Origin: Lentzea aerocolonigenes
GTDB lineage: Bacteria; Actinomycetota; Actinomycetes; Mycobacteriales; Pseudonocardiaceae
DNA: 19,444 bases
Assembly (NCBI RefSeq): GCF_000955955.1
Contig: NZ_JYJG01000436.1
Location: forward strand, 1 to 19,444
Direction of reading: 5' to 3'
Shown here: in pieces, positions 964 to 18,358 of the stretch
Numbering within the stretch: the first letter of the stretch is position 1
Layout of the letters: the number at the start of each line of letters is the position of its first letter
Translations under genes and position numbers: made by a program
Notes under the pieces: model-generated
Told to the model about the DNA's origin: nothing
Databases searched by the model: none
What the model saw: the letters and a program-made list of their open reading frames with translations, nothing else

Positions 964-2298
964 GTGACGACGAACTCACGCATCCGTCGCAAGGGCCTGG
1001 CTCCGGTCGTCCAGGCGCGGTTGGCTCTGTGGACGTTCGTCATCGTCAACCTGGCGATCATCGAGTTCCTGTTCCTGACCGCGGGCAAGGGCAAGAACGA
1101 GGTCCTCACCGTCGCCAAGTTCTTCGGCCTGCACGCCGCGCTGATCATGATGTGCCAGCTGCTGCTGGTGGCACGGCTGCCGTGGCTGGACCGGCGCATC
1201 GGCATGGACCGCTTGACGGTGTGGCACCGGTGGAACGGTTTCCTTCTGTTGTGGACGGTGCTCACCCACGCCACGATCGTCGTGCTCGGGTACGCCACCC
1301 TCGACAACGTTTCGATAGCAAAGACGTTCGTGGCCCTGGCCGGCGTGCCCGCCTCGCTGCTGGGCATGCTCGCGGCCACCACCATCCTGGTCACCGGGGT
1401 CGTTTCGACGCGGTACGTCCGGCGGCGTCTGCAGTACGAGACCTGGCACGGCCTGCACCTGCTGCTGTACGTGGCGCTGGGCCTGGCGTTCGTGCACCAG
1501 CTGATCGAGACCACGACGTTCAAGTCCTCGCCGTCCGCGATGGCCTACTGGTGGGCGCTGTGGCTGTTCGCTTTCGGCTCGTTGGTCGTCGGGCGGATCG
1601 TGCGGCCACTCATCCTCAACGCCCGCCACCAGTTCCGGGTCGCGGCCGTGGTGCCGGAGTCACCCAACACGGTGTCGGTGTACGTGACTGGCCGCGGCCT
1701 CGACCGGCTGCCAGCCAAGGCCGGTCAGTTCTGCATCTGGCGGTTCCCCGGACACCGTCACTGGTGGCTGGCGAACCCGTTCTCGCTGTCCGCCGAGCCT
1801 GATGGACGCTCGCTGCGGCTCACCGCCAAGGCCGTCGGCAAGGGCAGCGCGGGCCTGCGCGACCTGCAGGTCGGCACGCGCGTGTTCGTCGAGGGCCCGT
1901 ACGGCGCGTTCACCTCACTGCACCGCACCCGGCCGGGCGTGCTGCTGATCGCGGGCGGGGTCGGGGTCACCCCGATCCGGGCTCTGCTGCAGGAGCACAC
2001 GCCCGGCGACTTCGTCGTCCTCTACCGGGTGCGCGACCAGCGCGAGGCCGTGCTGCTGAACGAGTTGCACCAACTCGTCCAGGCCCGCCGCGGTCGGCTG
2101 CACCTGCTCACCGGCCGGACCGGCCAGGGAGCCCGGCCATTCGAGCCGGGCGCCCTGCGTCAGTTGGTGCCCGACATCGTGGAACGGGACGTGTACGTGT
2201 GCGGTCCGTCCGCGATGACCGCGGCCGTGCTGAGCGGGCTGCGTCAGCTGAACGTGCCGCGCCTTCAGGTACACGCGGAGAAGTTCGGCTTGGCCTGA
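964..2298 (+). CDS. Ferric-reductase-like transmembrane flavoprotein (ferredoxin reductase family)
   Basis: The 444-residue protein has an N-terminal membrane domain (about residues 18-215, with hydrophobic helices near 21-40, 53-72, 90-110, 122-147, 162-182 and 193-213). Candidate haem ligands are His57, His88, His102, His162, His165 and His178. A ferredoxin-reductase module follows: the FAD-binding barrel has NPFSLS at 271-276 and GPYGAF at 311-316, and the NAD(P) domain has GGVGVTPIRA at 331-340 and YVCGPSAM at 411-418. Members of this family move electrons from cytoplasmic NAD(P)H through FAD and haem across the membrane to ferric iron or another acceptor; the substrate cannot be told here. 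Its length is normal and it looks intact. The start is GTG 964, with GAGAGG nine bases upstream. A damaged CBS-BON gene follows 92 bases later on the same strand. It is probably not part of the conflict module. Confidence 0.88.
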   Translation: MTTNSRIRRKGLAPVVQARLALWTFVIVNLAIIEFLFLTAGKGKNEVLTVAKFFGLHAALIMMCQLLLVARLPWLDRRIGMDRLTVWHRWNGFLLLWTVLTHATIVVLGYATLDNVSIAKTFVALAGVPASLLGMLAATTILVTGVVSTRYVRRRLQYETWHGLHLLLYVALGLAFVHQLIETTTFKSSPSAMAYWWALWLFAFGSLVVGRIVRPLILNARHQFRVAAVVPESPNTVSVYVTGRGLDRLPAKAGQFCIWRFPGHRHWWLANPFSLSAEPDGRSLRLTAKAVGKGSAGLRDLQVGTRVFVEGPYGAFTSLHRTRPGVLLIAGGVGVTPIRALLQEHTPGDFVVLYRVRDQREAVLLNELHQLVQARRGRLHLLTGRTGQGARPFEPGALRQLVPDIVERDVYVCGPSAMTAAVLSGLRQLNVPRLQVHAEKFGLA

Positions 2299-2736: not shown

Positions 2737-5700
2737 TCACGTCCGCACGACGCTGACCTTCGTGTACATGCGCAGGAACTGCGCCTCGACGCCGTCTGGC
2801 GGAGTAATCACCGGCATGAGTGTGATGGGCACGGCGTCGCTGACAACATGATCAGCCTGGAGGTGGAGTGTCCGCCGCTGGGAGTCCAGCAACCGGGCCT
2901 GCGAGGTTGCACTTTCCTGTGGCGCGACGAGAATGCGTCCCCAGAGCGCGAGTGGAGACATGATCTCGCTGTCTCGCACCAGTTCTGCGGCGGTGTCGAG
3001 GTCGCCCACCGCCGTCATCAGCGCTCGGGCGATCGGAGCGAGATCGCGCTCTGCGTCTCGAAGCGACGGCTTCACCAGCATCGCCTGGCTGAAGGAGCGG
3101 AGCTGGCGAACCTGACGCGGCGTGAGTTCCCTGCTGAGCGACAACGTCCGCAGCCGTGCCCATGCTCCGTTGAGCGCGTGGCGTTCGGGTCGCGCGATCC
3201 ATGCCGTGACGAACTGTTCAGCTTGAACGCTTGCTGCGGCACGCCGACCAGTCTGGTGCAGGATGGCCACTGCGGCGGCGGCAGCCGAATCGTCCCCGTG
3301 AACGCCGAGGAAGTCCAGCACGACAACTGCGGCGAGGGCCACAGCCGCGTCCATTTCCTGGTCCGGCACCAGGTTGGCCACTGCGGGACCGTGCAGCGCC
3401 AACCACTGGGCCACAATCGCGGCCATGACGTCGACGCTCGGTTCTTCGGCTTGCTCGACGATCGTTCCAGCCGCTCGGATGATCGTCTCGGTGGGATCGT
3501 TTTCGCCGACGACAGCTGGAAGGCCCTCGCGGTACCACCGTTGGTAGTGTTTGAACTTCGTGACTGGGGGAGCGTGCACGGCGTCGCTTCCACCTCGGAT
3601 CGCCTCGTGTGAGTTCAGCGTCCACTGTGGCAGGTTCAGGCGCACCAGCCGAGTGTTGACGTCGCGCACCGTGATCGATGTCCGGTTCTTGCCGACGAAA
3701 GCGCTGTCCACTTCTGTGAACCGGCTGTCACCTTCCGCCAGACCTGGCTCGGCGGACTCGTAGGACAGGAGCACCGGAGGCATTTCGAGCCGGGCGACAT
3801 ACCGCCACTCGCCGCTGGCGGCTACGACCGGATCGCCCTTTCCAACTACCACGCGCAGCGGCGCGCTCGGGTGGAGGGCTTTTGCCTGCTGGGCGACCGC
3901 CGGATGCGTGGTGATCGAGATCGCTCCGGAGTGGAGCTTTTTCGCCGCCAGATCGCCGATCCGGCGGAGGTTCGCCAGGAGGTCGTCTGCCGAGATGTCG
4001 CGGATCCACGATGCGTGGCCGACGGGAAGCCAGTGGTAGCGCCTGCTTCGGGAATCCATGCACACCAAGCCCGCGACGGCGCCGTTCTCGTCCAACACGA
4101 CGTGTTCGGCGGTGACGATCGGGTTGGTGACGTCGTTGCCGTGCAGGCCGGCGTGTGGTGTTCCGGTTTCGTCCACCGACCACCACAACGTGTGGGTCCG
4201 GCGGTTGGCTACCAACGCCGCGCCAACTTGGTCGCACAGCGCGTGAGGGACACCCTGGACGAGGTCGTTGACCGCGACGGTGAAGACCGCGTCACCTGAT
4301 CTGAGGAGCAACGCCCTCGTTCCGAACTGGGCGAGGATCTCTGTGCGCACCAACCGGTTGGAGGGCCACTGACCGGACCGTTGGTCCCGCCGGCACACGG
4401 TCACCACTCGGCGGTCCACCCCGACGATGATGATCGTCACCGGGAGCACGCCGCCGAGGTTGGTGAGCAGCGGGCGGCGGGTCTCAGGGTGGTCGAGCGA
4501 CTGGCGCAACCACCGGTAGCCAGGCCAGTTCGACTCCGAATCGCCCGCGAGCCGCACCTCCACATCCGGCAGGCCGGCCAGCGCGAGATCACCGGTGGGA
4601 CCGACGGTCAGGAGCCCGGCGTCGCCCGGCCGGATCCCTTCGTAAGAAACGGGTTCGATGTCGTTGCGGTGGTTGAGCCAAACGGCGTCGACATCGGTGT
4701 AGGCGGCGAGATCGTTCGTGGCGATCGGGTAGGACAGGTGTCGTCCGGCGCCGAGGCGGAGTGCGCCTCCACGGGTGTTGGTTCCGGCAACTGGGAGGAG
4801 CAGCCGAGAGCGCCGGTCCTGGGGGAGAGCGGCACGAAGACTCGTGGACCACGACGTGAGCACCAGGTGGTTCGGTCCCACCTCCCACAGCCCTCCGGAC
4901 GAACGCTGGGACAGGCGCAGCGTCACCCGATCGCCTGCTGCGAACATCGACCAGTCGACGTTCGCGAGTGAGGCACCGTTCTCTTCGTTGATCAACGCGC
5001 CGCGGACCTCGACCACCCGTCCCGGGCCCAGTTCCAGCCACAGTCCGGAGTTGTCCGCGTTGGGCGCGGCGACGGTGAACTTCGCGGAACCGTCCGGCCA
5101 GAACGTCTGATCCTCGACCAGCGCACTTGCGGGCAGACCGTTGTGCGGCATGCTCTTGGGCGTGTAACGCAGGGTCCAGCCGTTGTCGATGCTGAAGAAG
5201 ACCCCTTCGTCGCGTGCGGTTCCGGGACGGACCGGATAGGGGCCGACGCGGCGGCCGTTCGTGTTGTGCCCCGTCTTGCGGTCGTGGTGGATCCATTCGT
5301 GGCGCCTGCACGCCTGCGCGATGTCGCGCGCGGTCGAGTTGGCGAACGACATGCGCGCCCACGCCACCTTGACCAGCTCGGCGGCCTCGCCACCGCGCTC
5401 CGCGATCGGCTGCCACGGTCGCACACCCGCCGGTTCGTTGATATCGGTGCGCAGCACTCGGCCGTGCCGCAGGCTTTCGTTTGGTGCGGTTCGCAGCACG
5501 GGCTTCCCGGTGGAGTCGAGGTGCACCAGGCAGACCTTGGGGTGGGGCGTGGCGAGGATGGAGACGCCGGAACCGTCCACCGGGGACGCGGAGATGTCCG
5601 GTAGTCCGGAAACGGTGAACATCGAGCCCATCGCCTCGTCCCGCGCCGGCGCCACGCGAGCGAGCGCCGTCGCCTTCGGGAAAACGATCACGGGCCGGTC

Positions 5701-8700
5701 GTGGGCGGATAGGTAGGACTTGTCTGAGGGGAGCGCGGTGAGCAGGGTGACCTTGCGCTCGTCGTCGAGGGCGAGCCGCACCACGGCTCCCGAGCCGACG
5801 CCCTCAGCGCCCAGCACCTGCGATGCGTTGAACAGCACGCCCGGAGCGATCTCCAGCCTTTGGTCGCCCATGACCGCGTAACAGGTGCCGTTGCGGCTCG
5901 CGAGATAGCTGACCAGCGTCTCCGGCTTTCTGGTCGGTGCGTGGCGCACAGAGCCGAACCGCGTGTCCCGCTTGACGTATAGCAGCTTCACCAGCAGGAC
6001 GATCTTCATCGTCTCCGGGTCGAGACCGCCCGCGACGAGACGGGACAACGTGCTCTCCCGATAGGAGAATTCCCTGCGGTTCACCCGCACCGCCAGATCG
6101 TGGGCGTTGTCTGCTCCGTGCAGGCCGAAGATGACCGTCAGTTCGTTGTCCGTCTGCTCGATGCGCTGGGCGGTGAGGAAGACGAAGTCCCCGTCGCGGA
6201 GGTCGGTCGCGGTCTCGCGCACGGTGTGGAACGTCCGGATCCGGCCGCCCGTGGAAAGTGCCTCGACGGTGTCCAGCCTGGCCAGCACCCGCTGCTGAAC
6301 GAGTCCGGTCCTGCCCTCCGCGCGAAGGCGGTCGAGCAGGGCGTCCCGGCTGACGTCATCCAGCGACGCGGCGAACGGCACCCACTGGGTCGCCTCGAAC
6401 GGGTCACGCGTGTCGCCGAGCGAGCGGCCGGCCTGAGCGCGCAGGACGTGAACAGTTCCGACGTCCAGGCTGACCCTGAGGTCGATCAGGTGCAGGTGCT
6501 GCTTGGTGGCCTCGTCCACCACCCGCCGGGTGTAGTGGTGGGTGATGTCGAACTGGTCGACTACGAGAACAGGGTCACCGTGGTCCTCGGACAAAACGTA
6601 CGACACCGCATCCACCCGGTCACCGTGGAACAGCGCGGGGAGTGGACTGTCTTCCGCGGCCGGTACCCGGAGCCGCTCCGGTGGGACCGCCACGGTCCAC
6701 CCGTATCCCCATTCGAAGAGGTGGTGCTGCCTCTCCTCGGTCGGCGGGCCGATGTAGTGAAGTGGCTCCGCCAGCACGATCCGCGTGCCGTTGGCGACGA
6801 TCGAATACCGCCGCGCGAAGTCGTCCAAAGTGAGCGGTTCGGCTTTAACATAGGAGGCCAGGAAGCCGCGGCTAGTCGGCACCAGGCGCGCCCGTGCGGC
6901 GTTCCTGATGTACTGCGCACCGCCGACAGCCGGCTCCTGATCCGGTTCGAGCGGGAGGCGGGAGGTGTGCACCCCGTCGGGACCGGGTGGGCGTAGTCCA
7001 CCACCGACCTCGAACGCGGTTCCGTCCTGGGCCACCGAGCCGAGCACGTGCTCCTTGCCGGACTTCACGAACCGCTGCCACAGGTCACCGCCGGGATCTG
7101 GGCTCGTCCTCCGCGTCTCACCGCGCAGGCGCAGCGCGAAGTACCTGCGCACCTCGACCTGTGGGAGCCCGTTCACCGTCGACGCAGAGGAACGGGTGAC
7201 CCGAAGCTCCGCGCCTCCTACCGACAGGCCGCCGAGCATGCCCTGCGTCCTCGTGGCGCCGAGCAACGTGCGGTCGCTGCCGCGAGACGAGACCGAGACG
7301 GTGCGGACCGCGCCTGAGGCTCTTTGATTGACCACTTGCACACCGGCGCCCTCGATCTTGAGCAGACGAACGACGTCGTCCGGCGAGACCTGTGCGTCCT
7401 GTCGCAAGATCACCGGCTTGCCCACGATCTGCCGGTAGTCGTGATTGTGGTCCGAACCGATGTACTCCGCGTCCTCGCCGGGATCCGGCTCGCCGTCCCG
7501 CAGCTGGAACAGGGCGCGGACGGTGATCCGGCGATAGACGTACTCGAACGTCCACTCGCCGCCTTCGAGCGTGCCTGAGAACAGCTGGCCGATCAGCTTC
7601 GGGTCGGTGTCGCCGAACCACTCTGGCTCCAGTTCCACGTAGTGCACCGCGTCGCCGAAGCGGCACCACGTGCCGTACCTCTTGCCGTCAGCGAGCCGCC
7701 TGACGATCACGCCCTGGACGGCCGCGGACGCGGCAACGTCGTCGAGCACGACCGCCGGGTCCGTGTTCGCGGTGTGCACCTTGCTCACCAGGGCCGCTGT
7801 GGACAACGCCGCACCGCGGACGATGGTTACGGCGCGGGGGTGGTCGGCCCGGGGTTCGTTCACCACCTCGGCCAACCGTCCGTGCACCAGGTCCTTCGCC
7901 AGGTTCGTTCCGTGCTGGTCGAGCAGGGAGAGCGACTCAGCTTCCACGCTCACCACGAGCGATGTCGACGTGGCGACGCGGGGATGTGTGCTGATCTTCT
8001 TCGACACCATGTGGCTGAGCGTCAGGATGTCGCCTCGTCGTACGTTGTGGAGTTCGTCGAAGCGTTGCGGCGTCGGTGATTCCGACTCACGCACTCCTTG
8101 TGACTGGACGAACGAGACCGGCACTGTTCCCCGCCGGGCCTGATAGTCGGTCCACGGTTGCGTCAGGACGTGAACCCGGCTGCCAGCGCGTTCCGCACCC
8201 AATGCGCGCACGGTCAGCGGGAAACCGGGCGGCGGCTGAATCTCCACCACGCGTTCTTCGCCTTGCCGGACGACCACGGTCAGGTCGTCGTCCTGGTCGT
8301 CGAACAGCCGCAGCCATTGGACGTTCCGGTCGTCGTGGTCGGGCTCCCCGTCGGCGCCCAGCCGCACCGTCAGCAGCAGTCGTTCGGTGTCGGCGAGCGC
8401 AGCCGTCAGCACCAACCCGTGCCGTTCCGGCCGCAGCAGGCCGTCGAGCGCCTCGGGGTCGGTCCACACCTCGGGCGGCAGGTGGTAGAGCAATCCTGGT
8501 GAGCTGACGAAGTGCCACTCGCCGTCGTCGATCGAGGTGAACGTGAGCGCAACGGAGTCAGCGGCGGCGAGTTCGTCGACGATCAGCTCGCTCAGCCCTC
8601 TGACCACCGGAAGCCAGTGCCGCAGTGCGCTGTCCCAGCGCACGAGCCGACGTCGTGGTCCGTCCGGTGCGATGCCCGAGAACGTCCGGGCGAGATCGGG

Positions 8701-11700
8701 ATCCCAATGACGGTGCACGATCTCGGCGGCAGCGGATTCGTCGGACGGATAGGTGTAGCCCTTGGCGCCGTCGACCTCGACCCGCAGCCATGGCGCGGTG
8801 GCGTGCACGATGGCCGCCCTGACCTCGTCGTGGCCCGGTGCCGCTCGATCGAGCCGGCTGACCTCGACGACGGCCGGCGGGGTGCCGCGGACCTGGGCCG
8901 CGATGATGTCCCCGACCACCAGTGGCGCCGCTGTCGGTGCCGGTACGTGGCGCAGCAGGTCGCCGGTGCCGCAGTTGAGCCAGACGACCTGGCTGGAGTT
9001 CTCCAAGTCTGGAGGTTGGACGGCCGCGACGACTCCGATGACCGTCGCACTCTGGATGTTCCGCCTCGCCCCAGCCGGCCGCGCCTGCTCGTCGAAGAGG
9101 TCCCGCAGATGCGCTGAGCCTGACATCCGGGAGGACACGTCGAGGAGGGATCGGACCTCGCAGGCGTGAAAGCGGTCTGCGACGGACACCATGAGCCGCA
9201 GTTGCTCGGACCTGTTCCGGCGTTCGGTCAGGTCCCGGTCGTGCAGCCGCAACGGGACGCGCGTGGTTCTGAGCTCGCTCGCCAAGCTGATCTGCTCCCA
9301 GAGAGCGCTGATCCGCTCGGATGGCGACAGCGACTCGGCGGCGACGGTCGCTTCACCCCGGCGCCGCACCAGACCGGAGATGAACTGGTTTACCTGCTGG
9401 TCGAGGTTCTTCTGCGTCCATTCGCTCATGCGCATCTGCGAGGCTCCACGCAGACCGCGCAGCTCACTCGAGTAGCGGCGCCGGCGATAGATCGTCTCGA
9501 CGGCGCGCAGCTGCAGCAGCAGTGCGCTCTCGCCGCTCAGCGGAAGGTTGAAGAGCAAACGTTGCAGCAGCTGGGTCGCGTGCTTGAGATTGTTGGTGCT
9601 GAACTCCAGGATGCCGTCGATCGTCGCGGAGTGGATGCTCGCGAGCTGGCGCAGGTGCGCCGGGGAGGGCGAGCCGGCCTCCGGCAGTCGCGCCCTGATC
9701 AGCCCGATCATCAGGCTACGCACGTTCAGCGGCAGCTGTTCCGTGTGGTCGACCGCGTGCACGCGGTCGAGCCAGTCCTCGACCCACTCCACGTACACCG
9801 GATCGGTTGCGGCGAGATCCGGTTCGGAGAGCAGCGCGGAGAGCCGCATCACCCGCATGGTCATCGGCGCGGACTGAACGCTCGACCAGCTGTCGACCTC
9901 GTCGGAGTGCTCCCGCCACACGGCCAGCGGGTGCGCGGGGGACAGCAGCAGTCGCTCGGGACGGGCCGCGTTGCTCGTGATCGCGGAGCGGTCGCCGCCC
10001 GCCTGGCGCAGCGCGCTCTCGTAGGACTTGTTGTACCGGGCCCGGCTCGCGTACCAGTCGAGGTCGAGCTGGGGCCACGTGTCGCGGATCGGGTCCGGCC
10101 AGTCCTGTGGGTAGATCTCACGCAGCAGTTGAGCGGGCGTGAGGAGGTCCGGTGGCCGAAGACCGCGGTCGAGAGAGGTGCCGTAATTGGGTTTCCGGCG
10201 AGGGTCGGCGTTCGCGCGGAAGTGTTCCCTCTCGATCTGCTGCCTGCGCCGGTTCTCGCGCCGCTTCATTTCGCGTTGGTGCGTGTCCACCTCGCACAGA
10301 CGGTCGATCGCGGCGAACAACACCTGGCGAGCCGGCGGGAGATCTCCGGTGAACCACTGGCTTGGTGAGGTCGTGTCACTCGACTTGATCCAGGCCCGCG
10401 AGATCCACATGCTGCTGACCGCGGGCAGGGCCTGCCGGTTCGAACGGGCCCGCTGCTCGTGCAGGCCGAGGTCGTGTGCGTTGTCGTCCTCGAGCATCCG
10501 CAGGGCGAAGTCCGCGAACGTCGCCGACCGCGGCCTAGGCGTGAGGCCCGCGCCGGTGGCGTGGAGCAGCTGGTAGTTGTGCCAGGTCAACGTCGCCATG
10601 GCCGGACTCGTCCCGTCCGCGTCCACGTAGTCGCCGCGCTCCAGCGCCTCTAGCATCGCCGCGTCGTCCCGCAGCACGTCGATCGCGTGGAACAGCAGGC
10701 TGATCAGGTGGTCGTTCCGAGTCGTACCGTCGGCGGCGGGGATGTTCTCCAGCAGCCTGACCGAGAGCGGAGCGAGCAGGAACAACCGCACGAGGTGTTC
10801 CGTCGTCCTCGGCAGAAATGCCGGTCCGTGGAGGCGGCGGTGGTCCCAGCCGTCGTGCTTGCGGTGCAGCCACGGCGAGAACACGGTCGAACCATCCGCG
10901 AAGGTGGTCGAGGTGATAGGCCCGTCGTCGAACGACGCCTCCAAACGAGGGTGCAACCGGGTGAACGCACGCACGTGATCAACGGCGGCCTCGCCCGAGC
11001 CCGCCGTGTGAATCGTGATCACCGAGCCGCTTGCGGGCGGCTCGGGCGTCTGCCACCAGCGGGTGAGCCTGTGCGCGGTCTCGACCGGATCGACCTCGGC
11101 GGCCATCTCCCACATCGTCGCGTTCCACAGCACGGCCGAGAGAACGGCGGGAGTCGTTGACACACGGCCGCTGACCAGCGCGTAGGCCTCTTCCAGGGCA
11201 AGGTCTGATCGTCCGTGCGATCGCCAGAGGCCGATGTCCTCGCCGGTGATCGCCTCGTGCTCCAGTTCGTCGACGGTCGGGCCGTCGTCGCCGGGGTGCC
11301 CGAACCACGAGCGGGCCAGCGCGGCGAGCAGGTCGGGCTGCAACTCGGTCGCACCGTCCCCGGCGCGCCAGAGGTCCTGCCACACGACTTCTCGTGCCTG
11401 TCGGTCGGCGCGGCAGGCACCGTCCGCCGCGGCGAGCAGCGCAAGCCTGCCGAAGTCGCCGCGCAGCGCCGCGGTGGCCAGCGGGATCGCCGTGTCACCG
11501 AGCCAGTGCGTGCCGCCTGTCCGAGGCTGCCGGCGCGTGAGCTCCGCCAACGCCACCAACGTGAGCGTGGGCATGATGAACTCGCCGAGCTCGTGGTAGG
11601 GGATCGTTCTGACCTGTGCCCGATGTCGGCGTGCGTCGTCCGCGAGCCGCGCGGCGATCTCGTCCAGCAGCACGGCTCTGGTGCCCTGTGCGTCGCGGGC

Positions 11701-12039
11701 GACCTGTGACAGCGCCGTGCCGAGCCGCGGCGCGAGCGGGTGGTCGGTGAGCGACAGGATCGAGCTGGCGACGTTGTCGGTCAGCCCGAGCACCTCCTGG
11801 TCGGGCTGCTGGGGATGACCTTCGGCCTGCGAGTCGTTCTTGATCGCTGCGAGGAGAGGCCCGAGCGCATAGGCCTGGAGCCGTGGTCCAGCGGTCGTCA
11901 GCGCGAGGGCCGCGTGTCGCAGTTCGATCGTGGTGATCTCACGCCTGCGCAGCGTCGTCATCGTGTCGAGGAACGCGTCGGTGTCCCGAGGGGACAGTCG
12001 CATCGTGGTGGTGAAGAACCAGTCCGCAGCCAGCGTCAT
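2737..12039 (-). CDS. Giant 3,100-residue protein of unknown function; helical ends and a beta-rich GD-repeat centre
   Basis: I do not recognise this as a named family. It starts at ATG 12039, with GGGAGG (12047-12052) seven bases upstream, and overlaps the protease stop by four bases (ATGA). The frame stays open upstream to 12699, but only inside the protease gene. Residues 1 to about 970 look mostly helical, with a strongly basic/acidic helix at 586-616. Residues about 1000-2750 look beta-rich. They repeatedly show a G-D followed by alternating hydrophobics: 1041-1050 (VVGDIIAAQV), 1334-1342, 1804-1815, 1947-1955, 2367-2376, 2470-2479 and 2580-2588. This is compatible with serial small barrels of the S1/OB type. 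A His-rich segment lies at 2247-2258. Residues about 2840-3070 are helical again. I saw no Walker A motif, no protease triad, no signal peptide and no membrane helix. A cytoplasmic scaffold or sensor partnering the protease is inference. Confidence 0.9.
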   Translation of the reverse strand: MTLAADWFFTTTMRLSPRDTDAFLDTMTTLRRREITTIELRHAALALTTAGPRLQAYALGPLLAAIKNDSQAEGHPQQPDQEVLGLTDNVASSILSLTDHPLAPRLGTALSQVARDAQGTRAVLLDEIAARLADDARRHRAQVRTIPYHELGEFIMPTLTLVALAELTRRQPRTGGTHWLGDTAIPLATAALRGDFGRLALLAAADGACRADRQAREVVWQDLWRAGDGATELQPDLLAALARSWFGHPGDDGPTVDELEHEAITGEDIGLWRSHGRSDLALEEAYALVSGRVSTTPAVLSAVLWNATMWEMAAEVDPVETAHRLTRWWQTPEPPASGSVITIHTAGSGEAAVDHVRAFTRLHPRLEASFDDGPITSTTFADGSTVFSPWLHRKHDGWDHRRLHGPAFLPRTTEHLVRLFLLAPLSVRLLENIPAADGTTRNDHLISLLFHAIDVLRDDAAMLEALERGDYVDADGTSPAMATLTWHNYQLLHATGAGLTPRPRSATFADFALRMLEDDNAHDLGLHEQRARSNRQALPAVSSMWISRAWIKSSDTTSPSQWFTGDLPPARQVLFAAIDRLCEVDTHQREMKRRENRRRQQIEREHFRANADPRRKPNYGTSLDRGLRPPDLLTPAQLLREIYPQDWPDPIRDTWPQLDLDWYASRARYNKSYESALRQAGGDRSAITSNAARPERLLLSPAHPLAVWREHSDEVDSWSSVQSAPMTMRVMRLSALLSEPDLAATDPVYVEWVEDWLDRVHAVDHTEQLPLNVRSLMIGLIRARLPEAGSPSPAHLRQLASIHSATIDGILEFSTNNLKHATQLLQRLLFNLPLSGESALLLQLRAVETIYRRRRYSSELRGLRGASQMRMSEWTQKNLDQQVNQFISGLVRRRGEATVAAESLSPSERISALWEQISLASELRTTRVPLRLHDRDLTERRNRSEQLRLMVSVADRFHACEVRSLLDVSSRMSGSAHLRDLFDEQARPAGARRNIQSATVIGVVAAVQPPDLENSSQVVWLNCGTGDLLRHVPAPTAAPLVVGDIIAAQVRGTPPAVVEVSRLDRAAPGHDEVRAAIVHATAPWLRVEVDGAKGYTYPSDESAAAEIVHRHWDPDLARTFSGIAPDGPRRRLVRWDSALRHWLPVVRGLSELIVDELAAADSVALTFTSIDDGEWHFVSSPGLLYHLPPEVWTDPEALDGLLRPERHGLVLTAALADTERLLLTVRLGADGEPDHDDRNVQWLRLFDDQDDDLTVVVRQGEERVVEIQPPPGFPLTVRALGAERAGSRVHVLTQPWTDYQARRGTVPVSFVQSQGVRESESPTPQRFDELHNVRRGDILTLSHMVSKKISTHPRVATSTSLVVSVEAESLSLLDQHGTNLAKDLVHGRLAEVVNEPRADHPRAVTIVRGAALSTAALVSKVHTANTDPAVVLDDVAASAAVQGVIVRRLADGKRYGTWCRFGDAVHYVELEPEWFGDTDPKLIGQLFSGTLEGGEWTFEYVYRRITVRALFQLRDGEPDPGEDAEYIGSDHNHDYRQIVGKPVILRQDAQVSPDDVVRLLKIEGAGVQVVNQRASGAVRTVSVSSRGSDRTLLGATRTQGMLGGLSVGGAELRVTRSSASTVNGLPQVEVRRYFALRLRGETRRTSPDPGGDLWQRFVKSGKEHVLGSVAQDGTAFEVGGGLRPPGPDGVHTSRLPLEPDQEPAVGGAQYIRNAARARLVPTSRGFLASYVKAEPLTLDDFARRYSIVANGTRIVLAEPLHYIGPPTEERQHHLFEWGYGWTVAVPPERLRVPAAEDSPLPALFHGDRVDAVSYVLSEDHGDPVLVVDQFDITHHYTRRVVDEATKQHLHLIDLRVSLDVGTVHVLRAQAGRSLGDTRDPFEATQWVPFAASLDDVSRDALLDRLRAEGRTGLVQQRVLARLDTVEALSTGGRIRTFHTVRETATDLRDGDFVFLTAQRIEQTDNELTVIFGLHGADNAHDLAVRVNRREFSYRESTLSRLVAGGLDPETMKIVLLVKLLYVKRDTRFGSVRHAPTRKPETLVSYLASRNGTCYAVMGDQRLEIAPGVLFNASQVLGAEGVGSGAVVRLALDDERKVTLLTALPSDKSYLSAHDRPVIVFPKATALARVAPARDEAMGSMFTVSGLPDISASPVDGSGVSILATPHPKVCLVHLDSTGKPVLRTAPNESLRHGRVLRTDINEPAGVRPWQPIAERGGEAAELVKVAWARMSFANSTARDIAQACRRHEWIHHDRKTGHNTNGRRVGPYPVRPGTARDEGVFFSIDNGWTLRYTPKSMPHNGLPASALVEDQTFWPDGSAKFTVAAPNADNSGLWLELGPGRVVEVRGALINEENGASLANVDWSMFAAGDRVTLRLSQRSSGGLWEVGPNHLVLTSWSTSLRAALPQDRRSRLLLPVAGTNTRGGALRLGAGRHLSYPIATNDLAAYTDVDAVWLNHRNDIEPVSYEGIRPGDAGLLTVGPTGDLALAGLPDVEVRLAGDSESNWPGYRWLRQSLDHPETRRPLLTNLGGVLPVTIIIVGVDRRVVTVCRRDQRSGQWPSNRLVRTEILAQFGTRALLLRSGDAVFTVAVNDLVQGVPHALCDQVGAALVANRRTHTLWWSVDETGTPHAGLHGNDVTNPIVTAEHVVLDENGAVAGLVCMDSRSRRYHWLPVGHASWIRDISADDLLANLRRIGDLAAKKLHSGAISITTHPAVAQQAKALHPSAPLRVVVGKGDPVVAASGEWRYVARLEMPPVLLSYESAEPGLAEGDSRFTEVDSAFVGKNRTSITVRDVNTRLVRLNLPQWTLNSHEAIRGGSDAVHAPPVTKFKHYQRWYREGLPAVVGENDPTETIIRAAGTIVEQAEEPSVDVMAAIVAQWLALHGPAVANLVPDQEMDAAVALAAVVVLDFLGVHGDDSAAAAAVAILHQTGRRAAASVQAEQFVTAWIARPERHALNGAWARLRTLSLSRELTPRQVRQLRSFSQAMLVKPSLRDAERDLAPIARALMTAVGDLDTAAELVRDSEIMSPLALWGRILVAPQESATSQARLLDSQRRTLHLQADHVVSDAVPITLMPVITPPDGVEAQFLRMYTKVSVVRT

Positions 12040-14177
12040 GTCGTCGCCTCCCATGGCGGCACGGGCGGACGCATCGATGTCCGCAGTTGCAGGAGGACCT
12101 CCGCCAGCTCGAAGTCCGGCAGGTCGGGATCGTCGGTGAAGCCCGCGATGCGGCGCGCGTCGACGCCGAGACCCGCGAGCCAGGTCACCGTCGAGGAGCT
12201 CAGCGGGGTGCGGCCGAGGAACGCCCACCAGGCGGCAGAACCCGCGGACAGCGACTGAGGTATCACCAGACCCGCCCGCTGCGCGGAGATACCGGCAGAT
12301 GCGTTCTGAGCGGACAGGAAGGCGGCGAGGTCGCCCTCTTCGGACTCGTCGAGCCACGTTGCCAACCTGCCCGCGGGTGTACGGCGGTTGGCAGCGTGTT
12401 CGGTCCACGGCTTCCGTGTTCGTGCGTCGATCCCCGCCCGGATCATGCCCAGCAGCACCGAGTCGACGAGCTTCGTCTCGCGCAGCACGGCAGGTATGCG
12501 TGCGGGGGCTTCTGGTGCGGGTGCGACCGAGAGCCACATGTCCACGGTCTGATCGAGCGTCATCGCGGCGTGCAACGACGCAGCGTTCGCCGGCGCCACG
12601 CGGGCTGCCGCGTGGCGCCGGACCAGCGCAGGGAAGAACTGGGGCTGGTAGTCCCGCACCAGTAGCAGTGACGCGGACTCCTGGAGCGGTCCGCCCCACA
12701 CCTGTGCCGCGTTGAGCTCAGCGACAACGGCGTCGGCGACCTCGACCGGGTCGGCAGTCGTCGGTAGCGGCTCCACGGTGGACTGTTTCGGGAGAGCGGG
12801 CAGGCCTCGGCGCCACATCGCCTGCCACGCCCCGGTCATGAGCCGGTGTGCGACCTGATCGCCGTTCGCCAGCGGTGGGGCGTCGGTACCGGTCGCGGCG
12901 TCGGCGCCGTCGAACCACAGCCGTGTGAACACGTCGACGAGTTCGGCTCCCTGCCCCGAACCCAGCTCACGGGCGAGCCCGCAGGCGGTGGCGACCGCGT
13001 CGACCGGGAGAGCCGCCGTCACGACGAAGACCAGAGCAGCTTGCGGCGCCAACAGCCGCACCCGGTTCCGGCACTCGCGCGCGGACAGTGCGGCAGACCC
13101 ATCGGCAGGCCAGTCGAGCACGAGGCCGAATCCGATCCCGCTCTCGGCCGAGCCGTGCCCGCGCAGCCGGAGCAGGTGGTGTTCCCTGTCCGGCAACGTG
13201 ATCCGCGCGTCGGCACGGTGCCACCGCCGCGGGGCGACGTCCGAACTGTTGAGGCTGATCACGTCGTCCTCGAGGCGGTTGAGAGCCGAGCTGAAGTCGA
13301 TCCCCGGCGCCGCGGCGACCACGTTGGTGCTCGGTCCGCGCTGCAGGCAGACCCAGGCGCCGAGGTCGGCCATGTCGAGGCTGTCCACCGGCAGCGGCCT
13401 GCCGTCGGGCCGCCACTCGGCGGGCACGCGGTGCAGGAGCAGGCCGTGCGGACCGGACAGGTCGATGTCGGGTTCGGCGGTGTCGGGAGCTACCGGGGCC
13501 GTGTACTCGATGGCCAGGTTCTTTTCGGCCGCTCGGACGAGCGCCGAGAACATGAAGTCCGTGAGCAGTCCACTCACTCGCACGGCGCCCAAGGCCGAGC
13601 CGGGATAGGTGTCTCTCTCCCCGCGGACGACCCCGAGCAGTTTGGCGCCGTCACCGCTGAGCAATGGGCCACCTGACAGCCCGCCCCACGCGGACACCTT
13701 CTTGCCGTCCTTGTCAGGACGTGCCTTTGGCGGCATGGTGGGCAGGTCGAGGCGGTAGCTTCCGAGCTTGCGGAAGGTGATCGAGGACACGAGCCAGGTC
13801 TCGTGCGCCAGGGAACGCTCCCCGTTGTTCCGGTCCGCCCAGGCGTAGCCGAGCGTCATGCATCGTGCCTTGCCGACGCCGCGCAACTCAGCCCAGACGA
13901 CATCGTCGTCAAGGGCGGACCACGGGCTGTCCTCCACGTCCACGAGTGCGGTGTCGTCGTAAATACCCTTGCCGCACCACACAACCAACCCGGTGTATTC
14001 GCCCCCGAGCTCAGGCCACACCGTGCAGGTGGACTCGAGACCGCCGACAACGTGCTTCGCGGTGAGCAACAAGCTGGGTGTGACCGCGTAACCCGACCCG
14101 AACCGGAGTCCGTGGATCAAGGCGATCCGGCGTTCTGGCAGTTCGAGCGAAGACTGGTCGTTCGCGGGGCTCCCCAT
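12036..14177 (-). CDS. Trypsin-fold serine protease with a large unknown C-terminal region
   Basis: The first about 215 of 713 residues form a trypsin-like domain with an apparently complete triad: His42 in LLTAKHV, Asp75 in YDDTALV and Ser168 in GLSGGPL. There is no signal peptide or membrane segment, so the protease should be cytoplasmic, unlike classical secreted trypsins. Residues about 235-713 are unrecognised and mixed alpha/beta, with GLLLHRVP near 243 and mainly helical sequence after about 420. The region probably mediates partner binding or autoinhibition. The gene begins 12 bases after the Trypco2 stop; AGGGG at 14187-14191, overlapping that stop, sits nine bases before ATG 14177. 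Its TGA overlaps the giant gene's ATG by four bases. Trypsin domains beside Trypco2 proteins are known from predicted conflict systems, where they are thought to act as effectors or processing enzymes. The actual substrate is unknown. Confidence 0.9.
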   Translation of the reverse strand: MGSPANDQSSLELPERRIALIHGLRFGSGYAVTPSLLLTAKHVVGGLESTCTVWPELGGEYTGLVVWCGKGIYDDTALVDVEDSPWSALDDDVVWAELRGVGKARCMTLGYAWADRNNGERSLAHETWLVSSITFRKLGSYRLDLPTMPPKARPDKDGKKVSAWGGLSGGPLLSGDGAKLLGVVRGERDTYPGSALGAVRVSGLLTDFMFSALVRAAEKNLAIEYTAPVAPDTAEPDIDLSGPHGLLLHRVPAEWRPDGRPLPVDSLDMADLGAWVCLQRGPSTNVVAAAPGIDFSSALNRLEDDVISLNSSDVAPRRWHRADARITLPDREHHLLRLRGHGSAESGIGFGLVLDWPADGSAALSARECRNRVRLLAPQAALVFVVTAALPVDAVATACGLARELGSGQGAELVDVFTRLWFDGADAATGTDAPPLANGDQVAHRLMTGAWQAMWRRGLPALPKQSTVEPLPTTADPVEVADAVVAELNAAQVWGGPLQESASLLLVRDYQPQFFPALVRRHAAARVAPANAASLHAAMTLDQTVDMWLSVAPAPEAPARIPAVLRETKLVDSVLLGMIRAGIDARTRKPWTEHAANRRTPAGRLATWLDESEEGDLAAFLSAQNASAGISAQRAGLVIPQSLSAGSAAWWAFLGRTPLSSSTVTWLAGLGVDARRIAGFTDDPDLPDFELAEVLLQLRTSMRPPVPPWEATT
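12047..12052 (-). promoter_or_regulatory. Ribosome binding site deciding the giant gene's start
   Basis: GGGAGG on the minus strand lies seven bases before ATG 12039, inside the last codons of the protease gene. It fixes the start of the giant protein at the ATGA overlap rather than at codons further upstream. It also implies translational coupling between protease and giant protein. Confidence 0.8.
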
Positions 14178-14189
14178 GCCAGGTCACCC

Positions 14190-14531
14190 CTACTCCTCGT
14201 AGTCCCCGATGAGCGTCTCCGCGCCCTGGGGAAGCGACGTGTCGTGAGGCTTCAGGAGGACCTTCAACCGGTGCTTCGCCGCACCCTCGTGCTCGCGGGC
14301 TGCGCCGACCGACATGACCTTCCACAGGCTGACCTTGCCGTTGGCCTTGCGGGTCAGTTTCGCGGTGATCTCCAGCTCGAGCTCGATGGACTCGGCGGTG
14401 AACCGGATGCGCTCGTTCTTTCCCGCCTCGATGGATTCGGCGAGTTCGGACCGCAACAGCTCGATGGCTGTGGACAGCGCAATGCCGTCGTGGTCGATGA
14501 GGACCTGTCCGTCGTGTTCTGCACCTGTCAA
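14190..14531 (-). CDS. Trypco2 (trypsin-co-occurring domain 2) family protein
   Basis: The 113-residue protein has the layout of the small Trypco2 family. It has an N-terminal helix (AIELLRSELAESI, 22-34), two strands (IRFTAESIELELEI, 42-55), a middle strand (LWKVMSVGA, 69-77) and a last strand (KHRLKVLLKP, 87-96), with a short acidic tail ending DYEE. The family is defined by association with trypsin-like domains, and a trypsin gene follows 12 bases downstream. The role is not established; an adaptor or regulator of the protease is inferred. The start is TTG 14531: AGGGAG at 14538-14543 lies six bases away, no ATG is available nearby, and the length fits the family. An open frame continues upstream for 101 codons but has unlikely composition and is rejected. 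It is the first gene of the minus-strand operon, behind a structured leader. Confidence 0.88.
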   Translation of the reverse strand: MTGAEHDGQVLIDHDGIALSTAIELLRSELAESIEAGKNERIRFTAESIELELEITAKLTRKANGKVSLWKVMSVGAAREHEGAAKHRLKVLLKPHDTSLPQGAETLIGDYEE

Positions 14532-14537
14532 GGCAGG

Positions 14538-14584
14538 CTCCCTACTCGCTGTTCGACCTCTGCTGTTGAGGTATTTCAGCGAGT
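14538..14584 (-). promoter_or_regulatory. Composite stem-loop adjoining the Trypco2 ribosome binding site
   Basis: Two nested perfect inverted repeats lie in the leader. The outer 8-base arms are 14544-14551 (ACTCGCTG on the plus strand) and 14577-14584 (CAGCGAGT). The inner 5-base arms are 14556-14560 (ACCTC) and 14568-14572 (GAGGT). Two symmetric 4-base internal loops and a 7-base apical loop separate them. In the minus-strand transcript the structure ends on the base immediately before AGGGAG (14543-14538), the Shine-Dalgarno of the TTG start. It could act as an RNA switch on translation, or as a nested operator if bound as DNA. Geometry is seen in the sequence; function is inferred. Confidence 0.55.
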
Positions 14585-14654
14585 GGATACGCAGCGTTAC
14601 ATCAATCCATGATGAGGTTGTGGTATCACTCGAACGTCGTACTGCTGGATGGTG

Positions 14655-14669
14655 TCCAGCGTCGCTGGA
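14655..14669. promoter_or_regulatory. 15-base palindrome, candidate operator
   Basis: TCCAGCG-T-CGCTGGA is a perfect 7+1+7 inverted repeat near the middle of the divergent intergenic region, about 125 bases from the Trypco2 start and 320 from the plus-strand start. Its symmetry and place suit a dimeric repressor or activator controlling both operons. No second copy was noticed elsewhere in the window. No gene in the module is an obvious classical regulator; the winged helix of the FtsK-like protein or the AbrB-like protein are possible binders by inference. Confidence 0.35.
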
Positions 14670-14977
14670 ATCGTTGTGACTCATGTTGTTTGGACGATGC
14701 GGATATTCCATGTCATCGTGCAGACTTGTGGACTGATCAGGTGAATGGGGCTGGTCCCGGTAACAGTTGGTCGGATCTGTTCGATTGTTCAGGACGGAAT
14801 TCGTGGTGGGCAGTTGCGCCGATGCGACGACCATATGTCGCGATGTCTGTCGATTGGCCCGCTGACGTGTGACGGGGCACCAAAAGATCTACCAGCAGCT
14901 ATTTGCGGCGCTGTAACGCTTCTGTGGGCTCGCACGAGGTTTGTACCACCGTCCACGTCGAATGAGCCGGCTCCACC

Positions 14978-14983
14978 AGGAGG
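14978..14983 (+). promoter_or_regulatory. Ribosome binding site deciding the start of the 254-residue protein
   Basis: AGGAGG is followed after five bases by GTG 14989. This selects that start over the in-frame TTG at 14941 and ATG at 14962, which lack such a site. Confidence 0.8.
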
Positions 14984-14988
14984 CGCCA

Positions 14989-15753
14989 GTGCCACTGTTC
15001 CGCCGCGACCAGCCCCAGGCGGCGAGTCCCCCTCCGCCCCCACAACTCCCGGACAACACCGATTCCCCATTCCTGAACGTGCTTTCTCGTGAGCTGAACG
15101 CCGTTCTCCCCAAGGAGAAGATCGTCGAGATCCGCTCCCAGCTGACCGCGACCCGGGAAGCGGCGCCCGAACAGGACCGCCTCCGCGCCTTCCTCGCGCT
15201 GGACTGGCTCACCCACGCTTGGCTGGGGAGATGGTGTGCAGTGTTGGCGCGTGACGAGCAGTTCGCCGCCGCCCTCCCCTCACTTCCGCCGATCCGCGAC
15301 TTGCATACTGCGGGACAGACGGGCGATCTCGTCCACATACTGCGCCACAACGAGATCACGGCGGCGGACCATCTCGCGCAGAATTACCGCGACGACAACT
15401 TCTACGACATGGCCACCGTCTCTGCGGCGCGCCAAGCGTCGTCGAGCGCTCCGGCCAAGGCGGCGGGCAGTGCTTTCGCCGACGCGGCGGCGTCGACGCT
15501 CCTCGACGAGTGCCTGGCAGCTCGCGCCGACCGCGCGTTGAGCGCTGTCCGGACGCTCTCGTTCATGTATTGCCTCGACGAGGTGTGGAAGCACATGACG
15601 ACCTGGGCCGCAGGGCCTGGGAGTTTCGACGTCAAGAAGCTGAACATCAACAATCTCGCACCCGCGGCGGCGTGGTACGCACTACAGCCGGTGACCGGAC
15701 AACTCTTGGACGACGCTGCCCGGCTCTACCTCGACCTGCATCGGATGCGCTGA
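14989..15753 (+). CDS. Unrecognised helical protein, partner of the FtsK-like NTPase
   Basis: The 254-residue protein begins with a short basic segment (MPLFRRD) and a proline-rich linker (residues 14-22). The rest is almost entirely helical, including an Ala-rich stretch (142-180) and a Trp/Tyr-containing C-terminal bundle (185-252). I see no signal peptide, membrane helix or catalytic motif and do not recognise the family. The start is GTG 14989 behind AGGAGG. Its TGA overlaps the ATG of the FtsK-like gene (TGATG), so the two are translationally coupled and probably made in equal amounts as partners. It is the first gene of the plus-strand operon, facing the Trypco2-protease operon. A structural subunit or an adaptor recruiting the NTPase is inference from context alone. 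Confidence 0.8.
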   Translation: MPLFRRDQPQAASPPPPPQLPDNTDSPFLNVLSRELNAVLPKEKIVEIRSQLTATREAAPEQDRLRAFLALDWLTHAWLGRWCAVLARDEQFAAALPSLPPIRDLHTAGQTGDLVHILRHNEITAADHLAQNYRDDNFYDMATVSAARQASSSAPAKAAGSAFADAAASTLLDECLAARADRALSAVRTLSFMYCLDEVWKHMTTWAAGPGSFDVKKLNINNLAPAAAWYALQPVTGQLLDDAARLYLDLHRMR

Positions 15754-17807
15754 TGGAACTCACCGACAACCCCGATGGTCTCGCCGCGGTCGTCACCGCG
15801 CGGAACCTGGCGCTCCACCGGAAGCTGGGAGCTGAGCGTCACAGACTCAGGCAGCTGAGTGAGGCCGATGCGCACGTTCGCGACGAGCTGGGCAGCGGTG
15901 TGCTGTCGTCGGAGACCGCAGCGGCGCTGCGGTTGGCCCAGCTGCCGACGTCCAGGCTGAGTTCTTCCCTGCAACGGGAGATCCAGGCTGGCCGGTGGAG
16001 CCTCGACGACACCCGCAGGACCACGTCGCCCTCGCCGGAGCTGAGTGCTGCCTTCAGCGAGACCTCGGCGATGTGGCAGCAAGCCCTGGCCACGGCGACC
16101 GCGGCTCTCGACAGCTCGGCGTCGGAGACCGCACTCCTCCTGGACGAGCACGAGCACGACTTCACCCGCATGACCGGAGGTGAGCAGCAGGTCATGTCCT
16201 CGTTCGCGTTGCCGCACAAGACGTATGTCGGTGCCGCGCGGACCGGGAAGTCCACTGCGGTGCCGAGGTGGCTGGGCCTGTTGGAGGTTCTGCCGGAGAA
16301 GCCGTGGGGTCGCCTTCCGTGGACGGACTTGTCCGACCGCAACCTCGTCTTCCTGCCCGACGAGCAGAACCTCTACTACTGGGACGCGGTTTCCGCGGTT
16401 CAGAGCATCGTCGCCGACCAGATGTCGCGCTCTGCCCCCAATGGCCTCAAGATCACGTGGGTCGACGGCATGCACCAAGGACAGAGTGCGGGAGTGTTCC
16501 TGCGGCTGGCAGAGAACGGCCCGCGTGTGTTGGACGGTCAGGTGTGGACGGAGCCGTCGAGCATCGAGGCGGCGCTGCGACGGGTGGCGAACCGGGTGGG
16601 CCAGATCCAGCAGTCCTGCCTGAAGGACGAACTTCCCGATCTCGACAGCTACAACGATCGGCCCGGAGTGCCGGTCGAGGCGCATCACGTCGTGGTCGTC
16701 ACCGGCTACCCGCACGGGTTCCAGCAAGCGTCGGCGACCCTCCTCCAGCAGATCTCCGAGCAGAGCTACCGCACCGGTGTCTCCGTTCTGGTGGTCATGC
16801 ACCCGATGATGGCCTCGATCGCCCCGACGGCCGGCTCCGCGGTGTCTTACTACGCCACGATGGAAGATGGTGCCATCCCGAAGTCGGCGCCCGAGTGGTG
16901 CACGTTCAGCGTCCTGCCCAGAGGCGAACCCGTAGTGGGCCGGGCAGGGCAGCCGCACGCTCGTGTCTTTCCCCACGAGGAGAATGTCGCGGTCTGGATG
17001 CCCTACTCGCCGAGGAACCTCGAGAAAGCCGACCAGGAGGCGATCCTCCTCGGCTATGTGCGCGCGTCGGCCCAGCTGGTCGCGACCGGGCTCAGCCCGC
17101 GCGAGCTCGCGGTGCGCAACCTCGACCCGGAGGAGCGGACCACCGCACTGCGCAAGGCAATGCTCATGTGGCTGCACGAGCAGAGCGGGCGGGCAGACGG
17201 TCCGCGCTGGGAGGAGTTCCTGACCTCGGACGCGGTGCACGTCACCGGGACGACGTTCACCGCCGACGAGATCGGCAGGCAGGCGAAGTACTTCCACGAG
17301 CAAGGACTCGTGTTCGGCGCGCCAGGGTCGGAATCTCCGATGCCGGTGCTCACTCCAACGGGCGAGGACCTGTCAATGCGCAAGGATGTCAACGCTGCCG
17401 ACTTCGCGGCTCTCTCGGGGACGAGACCGGGCGACACCTACAACACGATCTTCCGTGACTCGGTGACCGTGTCGCAGGTGACAGTCGGCAGGGACAACAC
17501 CGTCACCCAGCACCAGCACGCCGCGGCGGGGTTCGAGGAACTGGCCACGGCCATGCGCCACGTCTCTGAGTTGCTGCCCCGGATCGGGCTGTCCGCTCCA
17601 GACGCGGAGGACGCCGCCGAGCACGTGTCGGACGTCATCGCCGAAACCACCGCCGCCGAACCGGACCCAGGCCGGATCCGTCGCGCGCTGAGAGGACTGA
17701 GGACGTTTCTGCAGCCCGTTGCCGACCAGGCGGTGAGCGGAGTGGGCGAGGGTGCGCACGAACTGGCGAAGGAAGCGCTCGGCCACCTGCAGCAGTTCGT
17801 TTCCTGA
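15753..17807 (+). CDS. FtsK/HerA-like P-loop NTPase with winged helix and a V-x-V-G-x-x-N linker
   Basis: The 684-residue protein has helical N-terminal sequence (1-140) and then an FtsK/HerA-like NTPase core. Walker A is GAARTGKST at 160-168. A segment resembling the FtsK strand after the P-loop lies at 233-256 (ITWVDGM), and the Walker B position at 311-322 reads HHVVVVTGYPHG, without the usual acidic pair. A winged-helix-like domain covers about 465-540 (LMWLHEQ, YFHEQGLV, VLTPTGEDL). A short beta-prone linker at 571-586 contains SQVTVGRDNTV, and a helical bundle ends the protein (593-683). Linkers of this sort resemble RHIM/amyloid-like signalling motifs in bacterial immune proteins. The start is ATG 15753, overlapping the upstream stop; the frame is open back to 15510 but only inside the upstream gene. 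It probably acts on DNA or as an NTP-dependent switch. The FtsK-like assignment is fairly sure; the function is not. Confidence 0.82.
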   Translation: MELTDNPDGLAAVVTARNLALHRKLGAERHRLRQLSEADAHVRDELGSGVLSSETAAALRLAQLPTSRLSSSLQREIQAGRWSLDDTRRTTSPSPELSAAFSETSAMWQQALATATAALDSSASETALLLDEHEHDFTRMTGGEQQVMSSFALPHKTYVGAARTGKSTAVPRWLGLLEVLPEKPWGRLPWTDLSDRNLVFLPDEQNLYYWDAVSAVQSIVADQMSRSAPNGLKITWVDGMHQGQSAGVFLRLAENGPRVLDGQVWTEPSSIEAALRRVANRVGQIQQSCLKDELPDLDSYNDRPGVPVEAHHVVVVTGYPHGFQQASATLLQQISEQSYRTGVSVLVVMHPMMASIAPTAGSAVSYYATMEDGAIPKSAPEWCTFSVLPRGEPVVGRAGQPHARVFPHEENVAVWMPYSPRNLEKADQEAILLGYVRASAQLVATGLSPRELAVRNLDPEERTTALRKAMLMWLHEQSGRADGPRWEEFLTSDAVHVTGTTFTADEIGRQAKYFHEQGLVFGAPGSESPMPVLTPTGEDLSMRKDVNAADFAALSGTRPGDTYNTIFRDSVTVSQVTVGRDNTVTQHQHAAAGFEELATAMRHVSELLPRIGLSAPDAEDAAEHVSDVIAETTAAEPDPGRIRRALRGLRTFLQPVADQAVSGVGEGAHELAKEALGHLQQFVS

Positions 17808-17864: not shown

Positions 17865-17893
17865 TTGACCCGTCGCTGGCTGTGGAACACGAT
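17865..17893 (+). promoter_or_regulatory. Weak candidate promoter before the small nuclease-fold gene
   Basis: TTGACC (17865-17870) is a good -35 box and lies 17 bases before CACGAT (17888-17893), a poor -10 box. It lies in the 119-base gap after the FtsK-like gene and suggests the next gene may be expressed separately. The support is one good hexamer only. Confidence 0.25.
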
Positions 17894-17926
17894 CGGCCGA
17901 TCTTTCCCTGTGACGAGGAGCGACGT

Positions 17927-18358
17927 GTGAGTCTCGCGAAGCTCAACAACGATCAGCTTCACGCCTACGCGGCCTACTGTGCTGCGGCAGAGGCGGTGCT
18001 GAGGACCCGTCTGTCGGTCCGTGTGGTGGACGAAGGTCGTCGCTATCGCCTGAACGTCTACGGGAAGCTCGTCCAGGTGTTCAGCAAGCGGTCCACGGAG
18101 TGGCAGCTGACTGGTGCACCCAGTCCGCTGGTGTCGAACACTGTCGCCGTCGTCTTTGTCGATTTCGCAGGGAAGGAACCCGAGTTCTACGTCGTGCCCG
18201 CGCGAACGCTGAAGGAAGACGTCGACCGCCGGTATCAAGCGGATTTGGTCCGCAAGGGCGAACGTGCACCCATAATGGGTAGTCACCACTACCTCGTGAA
18301 ACCAGAGCATTTAGAGCAATGGCAGGGCAAGTGGAGTGTGCTCGGCGGCAAGGGCTGA
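17927..18358 (+). CDS. Small protein resembling PD-(D/E)XK-fold domains, probably inactive
   Basis: The 143-residue protein starts at GTG 17927 with GAGGAG (17915-17920) six bases upstream. An initial helix (residues 7-27) leads into a strand near 40-54 (YRLNVYGKLVQVFSKR), a hydrophobic strand at 73-80 (VAVVFVDF) and then FYVVPARTLKEDV (87-99), ending with EQWQGKWSVL (130-139). This order resembles actinobacterial domains of the restriction-endonuclease fold, in which a strand carrying V-K is followed by a strand like VFVDL and then YVVPA. The acidic residues and lysine of an active PD-(D/E)XK site are not clearly present, so a binding rather than cleaving role is likely. It follows the FtsK-like gene by 119 bases on the same strand and may be its third operon member or a separate unit. 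The fold assignment is tentative; it could be an unrelated small alpha/beta protein. Confidence 0.75.
   Translation: MSLAKLNNDQLHAYAAYCAAAEAVLRTRLSVRVVDEGRRYRLNVYGKLVQVFSKRSTEWQLTGAPSPLVSNTVAVVFVDFAGKEPEFYVVPARTLKEDVDRRYQADLVRKGERAPIMGSHHYLVKPEHLEQWQGKWSVLGGKG

Follow-up and report, generated by a model that had tools for sequence, protein, structure and literature searches.

What is encoded by the two tightly packed, divergent operons on a short contig of the actinomycete Lentzea aerocolonigenes, and which of their genes belong together? The stretch of DNA analysed here (NZ_JYJG01000436.1, 19,444 nucleotides, hereafter the window) is an entire contig (C83) of a 10.2-Mb genome spread over 648 contigs. 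Its minus strand carries genes for a Trypco2 protein, a trypsin-containing protein and a giant protein; on the plus strand lie genes for two proteins of 254 and 684 amino acids (aa). An earlier note, made from the sequence alone, had read all five genes as one candidate undescribed conflict system built around Trypco2, an intracellular trypsin and the giant. We find support for a conflict system of smaller extent, and the case for it is strengthened by the swapping of effectors among relatives. It would be a two-gene, peptidase-based system with a new core, formed by the giant and the protein encoded directly upstream of it (the coupled protein), which are here joined by Trypco2. We put the probability of this reading at roughly 60%.

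Because seven other proteins align with the giant along its whole length, it is not a chance open reading frame (ORF). A search of 5.8 billion proteins returned the giant itself and eight others, seven of them full-length and 43–55% identical, and a broader profile search gave 13 giants, the window's own included, with members in Streptomyces and Kitasatospora. Scanning contigs with two peptide patterns, which makes the count a lower bound, revealed eight giant loci (L002–L009) in Mycolicibacterium, Streptomyces, Nucisporomicrobium, Nocardia and Micromonospora. Overall, the relatives are 25–55% identical and sporadic in Actinomycetota. Within the genus the giant was found in 3 of 24 genomes, the window's among them, which added two loci; six of 295 Streptomyces genomes carry it (L009 again being one), as does a single genome, the window's own, in an even sample of 394 genomes of the class. 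The class-wide and Streptomyces searches scored two to five candidates per genome, and their counts are lower bounds. No relative was found in IMG/VR and phage records. Two plasmids from different Streptomyces strains (L105 and L106) also carry the giant locus. They show five differences over a shared 21.8 kb and are unrelated beyond it; the divergence is abrupt and lies about 1.3 kb past the giant stop codon, around locus position 21860. This suggests that the giant island moved recently. The plasmid copies and the patchy occurrence within the genus fit the mobile island proposed in the earlier note.

The giant does not stand alone. Wherever its context could be read (18 of 18 loci), the adjacent upstream gene encodes a constant C-terminal domain, which we call the coupling domain. 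These loci lie outside the group of the giant's nearest relatives (P0012–P0018, 43–55% identical) and include near-duplicates (L007/L009, L059/L060, L094/L095, L105/L106); L093, which is the same contig as L009 (coupled protein 99.9% identical), was left uncounted. A profile built from nine of the 18 coupling domains matched 18 of these loci's 1,289 ORFs (150 residues or longer), always the upstream gene of the giant and nothing else; nine of the matched sequences had taken no part in building it. In a leave-one-out comparison all nine builder sequences were recovered by profiles of the others (E 3.5e-57 to 2.3e-13), the window's own domain with E 3.5e-57. Across the 295 Streptomyces genomes, taken as the same draw for the coupling and giant searches, the domain was detected in five, all of them giant genomes and each time at the giant locus. 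The genome search overlooked the sixth genome with a giant, G489 (L098), whose coupling match is 1.2e-26 at the level of ORFs. A first ORF call had fused the coupled gene of L009 to its giant; in the true upstream frame it is a separate gene. No solved structure was matched by profiles of the coupling domain, the trypsin protein or a giant segment.

The coupled protein consists of this constant domain and an exchangeable peptidase or adaptor domain. Among the 18 loci its N-terminal half is trypsin-like in one (the window), CHAT in 12, caspase in four and EAD1 in one. Nine of the CHAT assignments come from Pfam and two (L105, L106) from record annotation; L095 was assigned because its coupled protein is 39% identical to the L003 one. 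The caspase domain of L060 scores above the Pfam cut-off (E 1.2e-7) and L059 is assigned by 62% identity to it; the match of L008 is weak (E 0.02), and L004, with no Pfam match, is called a caspase solely because it is 23% identical to the L060 caspase (E 3.8e-6). In L005 the coupled protein and its divergent neighbour, which also has a clear trypsin domain, both score just under the EAD1 cut-off (21.7 and 23.7 versus 24.2 bits); the Pfam scan of the window proteins gave no EAD match. With a simple pattern, candidate His/Cys dyads could be seen in most of the CHAT and caspase proteins; the His of L105 escaped it, and for L060 it yielded no clear Cys. All four caspase genes, and none of the other coupled genes, are preceded by an alpha/beta-hydrolase gene.

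On a tree of 23 giants, at least five changes of effector type are needed among the 15 labelled rows, and the labels show no more scatter than shuffled ones (mean 5.5). The caspase locus L004 groups as sister to the EAD1 locus L005, and of the labelled rows the CHAT locus L002 lies closest to the window. L007, whose contig ends inside the gene, was excluded from the giant alignments and the tree, L105 and L106 are absent from the tree, and one alignment (A4) used eight of nine giants.

Several further genes were seen beside these loci. Opposite the CHAT-coupled gene, a second, divergent CHAT gene is present in seven Streptomyces loci (L003, L094, L095, L096, L097, L105 and L106); its product is about 715–785 aa long where the ORF is clear, and at least five of the seven also hold a small protein that looks membrane-like by eye. 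A genus relative has, beside its giant locus, a DUF4365/TPR gene (L060:854-4498) whose product matches the PADLOC model Aga_REase-PNTD1-PNTD2 at its N-terminus (E 3.5e-24). Downstream of the L002 giant, a protein kinase gene (L002:22267-23844) gives a strong match to PADLOC PD-T4-6, which we take as no more than a hint, since kinases match such models readily.

In the window the exchangeable domain is a trypsin. The Trypsin_2 match of the coupled protein is weak (E 0.0026, below the Pfam cut-off), and NCBIfam gives a weak match of the MarP type for the same region. The motifs TAKHVV, DDTALV and GGLSGGP occur in the order of a trypsin triad, and we take them to supply its putative residues H42, D75 and S168. 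The identification of Trypco2 in the adjacent gene was confirmed by Pfam (PF19631, E 2.9e-19). Since this domain occupies residues 118–196 of the 214-aa ORF, the true start of the gene is uncertain and a later one, such as the TTG at 14531, is plausible. In the 17 non-trypsin giant loci, no relative of Trypco2 was detected.

This combination of parts recalls a known family of systems. As described by Kaur et al. 2020 (PMC7159879), VMAP ternary systems (vWA-MoxR-VMAP) pair Trypco2 or Trypco1 with trypsin and an alpha/beta-hydrolase with caspase. They also share with the present loci an exchangeable trypsin or caspase N-terminus on a constant C-terminus, and actinobacterial hosts. The first pairing is found in the window and the second at the caspase loci. 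These likenesses would be expected if the locus were a derived VMAP system, its coupled protein a divergent VMAP and the giant a replacement for MoxR/vWA. However, the coupling domain does not match VMAP-C: hhalign against 15 VMAP-C sequences, out of 20 VMAP-C loci, gave a probability of 0.3%, and no scanned coupled protein has a Pfam VMAP-C match. Neither MoxR nor vWA was seen in the window or among the scanned neighbours (the other loci being scanned in part), and the partner here is a 3,000-aa S1/OB protein. Genuine VMAP-C was found in 20 of the 40 genomes of the relatives search, among them the window's own, which holds a clear one elsewhere. Judged by sequence comparison, the system resembles VMAP systems in appearance and lacks two of their defining features, VMAP-C and MoxR/vWA; we consider descent from a VMAP system highly improbable.

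Other known systems were compared as well. The EACC1-caspase systems (PMC7159879) likewise combine a constant component with a caspase-type protein in two genes and are prevalent in actinobacteria. They differ in that EACC1 is described as a single-transmembrane domain, whereas the constant component here is a giant and the peptidase itself is exchanged; no EACC1 match, and thus no EACC1 upstream gene, was found among the scanned proteins of the window. Hachiman/AVAST nuclease-protease pairs and canu loci are also reported to carry, on immune cores that are unrelated to each other, trypsin-like or caspase peptidases that serve as interchangeable activators (PMC12799240), but no metallo-beta-lactamase nuclease was recognised among the scanned window proteins and the core is neither Hachiman nor Avs. 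Trypco adapters further occur in diversity-generating retroelement loci (PMC10907252). Among the matches listed for literature on Trypco, VMAP, EAD, CHAT/OB-fold, giant-protein and trypsin-protease defence, in the portions available, no description of the giant/coupled pair was recognised.

We then considered what the giant might do. No Pfam family matched it. Residues of about 1–960 look helical, those of about 985–2830 are rich in beta-strands, and the C-terminus is helical. A structure model of residues 1700–2840 (1,141 residues, 37% of the protein) matches S1/OB-fold proteins, with folds of the S1, NusA, eIF2-alpha and exosome type, and contains tandem S1/OB barrels. By profile the internal repeats are weak (best probability 52%). 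Neither the giant nor the coupled protein contains a toxin or nuclease domain according to Pfam, NCBIfam and PADLOC scans. Multiple S1 domains in a bacterial conflict system have a precedent in TERNS3, whose effectors combine OST-HTH with several S1 domains (PMC8195603). In that ternary system they are effector modules, whereas the S1/OB protein of the present loci forms the constant core; the Pfam scan of the window gave no OST-HTH match.

Such folds, together with the lack of a recognised toxin or nuclease domain, would also suit a role outside defence, in which the giant is an RNA- or translation-linked scaffold for a stress or developmental protease of filamentous actinomycetes. The rare and patchy occurrence within the genus and in Streptomyces, the plasmid copies, alike over 21.8 kb and divergent beyond, and the exchange of effectors among relatives argue against this role, which we regard as unlikely.

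Returning to the two-gene conflict system, we propose that the giant would serve as both sensor and scaffold and would bind nucleic acid that is foreign or abnormal; its resemblance to S1 makes RNA a possible ligand. The coupling domain would keep the peptidase inactive on the giant. Sensing would release or reshape the peptidase, which could then cleave cellular proteins or activate a partner, for example the alpha/beta-hydrolase in the caspase loci, and the cell would be stopped or killed by the logic of abortive infection. Trypco2 would serve as a trypsin-specific regulator. Many predicted peptidase-based conflict systems use NTP-dependent switches (MoxR, STAND, GTPases). The exchangeable peptidases and accessory genes of such systems are found here around another core, the S1/OB giant and a new coupling domain, in which no nucleoside triphosphatase (NTPase) was recognised. 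If the proposal is true, proteolysis would be linked directly to the sensing of nucleic acid, and the natural exchange among trypsin, CHAT and caspase would offer a ready-made experiment on the control of such proteases.

A more specific version of this proposal draws on another fold match. Among the first hits of the giant in Foldseek was p204 HINab bound to double-stranded DNA (E 6.4e-4, probability 0.47). In the HIN receptors AIM2 and IFI16, which work with caspase-1, tandem OB folds lie upstream of a caspase-type peptidase. The giant could similarly be a nucleic-acid alarm scaffold of an undescribed bacterial kind, in which some fifteen S1/OB barrels would sense invader DNA or RNA and unleash any peptidase docked by way of the coupling domain, with no recognised NTPase switch, functionally much like a HIN inflammasome with trypsin, CHAT and caspase as cartridges. 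The likeness to AIM2/IFI16 is an analogy at the level of fold, with no common descent claimed, and we hold this picture to be possible yet doubtful.

It remains to place the plus-strand pair, for which the earlier note had assumed an FtsK/HerA-like NTPase and an unknown partner. The 254-aa protein has no match in Pfam, NCBIfam or PADLOC. The 684-aa protein has none in Pfam, and its C-terminus weakly matches the PADLOC candidate PDC-M14B. Its structure model points to an FtsK-type RecA-like fold (confidence score pLDDT 59 overall, mostly 55–82 in the core); profile comparisons gave a non-significant hhalign probability of 0.5% against seven FtsK domains and a chance-level match to solved structures (E 0.56). 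The fold assignment was thus kept as a model-based prediction, and the NTPase was rejected, as both Walker motifs are missing. The sole P-loop-like string, GAARTGKS at residue 160, is absent from all 12 relatives, none of which contains GK[ST], and the model places it in a disordered region (pLDDT 25–31). The true P-loop position, between the strand 197–200 and the helix 209–224, reads LPDEQNLY; where Walker B is expected, the relatives have a strand with VVVV[TSA]GYP or a near match to it and no acidic residue. Since homology to genuine FtsK proteins covers the region N-terminal to their ATPase domain, we predict a pseudo-ATPase lacking Walker A and B.

The C-terminal module of this protein (about 130 aa, residues of about 570–684, with a motif like GPVFNGxVSxAQxAWNN) accounts for most partial matches in other genomes. 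Small proteins that stand alone in Streptomyces and other actinobacteria (L041, L044–L048, L050) contain it as well, and it may be an adaptor. Full-length relatives were detected in 1 of 24 genomes (the window's own), 2 of 394 (its own and G253) and 1 of 392 (G253).

Could the pair nevertheless belong to the system, as executioner or regulator subunits activated by the trypsin? The divergent operons are tightly coupled: the ORFs of the giant and the trypsin protein share four bases (12036–12039), 12 bases separate the latter from the Trypco2 ORF (ending at 14190), and the plus-strand ORFs overlap as TGATG, which predicts translational coupling. The gene set and all three junctions, as given in the earlier note, hold by the ORF coordinates. 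Moreover, a divergent partner recurs elsewhere, as a second CHAT protein in seven loci and as the EAD1-trypsin gene of L005, and inactive FtsK domains are reported among effectors of VMAP systems (PMC7159879). Against this, neither gene turned up within the fetched flanks of the 17 other giant loci. In G253 a 254-aa partner (49% identical) adjoins the FtsK-fold relative (L061) with no giant nearby, and this genome gave no match in the search for giants. The named strains with FtsK-fold relatives and those with giants do not overlap, several entries being without a strain name. In G443 and G684 (Streptomyces) the giant and the C-terminal module are both present, megabases apart. The earlier note had set beforehand that separate occurrence of the two operons' homologs would count against a single system; in the loci read, they lie apart. 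We therefore rejected the five-gene unit as the best explanation and rate it very unlikely, also with a pseudo-ATPase as its subunit. The pair is probably an independent neighbour; for the nearest giant relatives (P0012–P0018), which lie outside the loci read, a clade-specific link is conceivable.

Table 1. Genes of the window and their coordinates
Feature	Position	Strand	Remarks
Giant protein	2737..12039	-	ORF, 3,100 aa
Coupled peptidase	12036..14177	-	713 aa; N-terminal trypsin-like domain and coupling domain (residues about 250-713)
Trypco2 protein	14190..14834	-	214-aa ORF; PF19631
254-aa protein, function unassigned	14989..15753	+	GTG start at 14989; probably separate unit
Predicted pseudo-ATPase with FtsK-like fold	15753..17807	+	684 aa, ATG at 15753; probably separate unit
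Ferric-reductase-like gene	964-2298		appears complete

The surroundings of the operons agree in part with the flanking recombinases and broken neighbouring gene of the earlier note. No broken gene was identified, the ferric-reductase-like gene being the complete-looking neighbour on the left. On the right, a 158-aa ORF (17882–18358, plus strand) with no family match adjoins a recombinase fragment; it looks protein-like by eye and may be an intact gene or a gene remnant. Coding sequence of a tyrosine recombinase is present at both contig ends (1–439 and 18878–19444, same strand). The right piece encodes the catalytic domain (Phage_integrase, E 3.8e-10) and the left one the N-terminal and central part, its Phage_int_M match (E 4.8e-4) being under the Pfam cut-off. 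These pieces would be expected of a circular element, and also of a contig that broke where copies of a recombinase are repeated.

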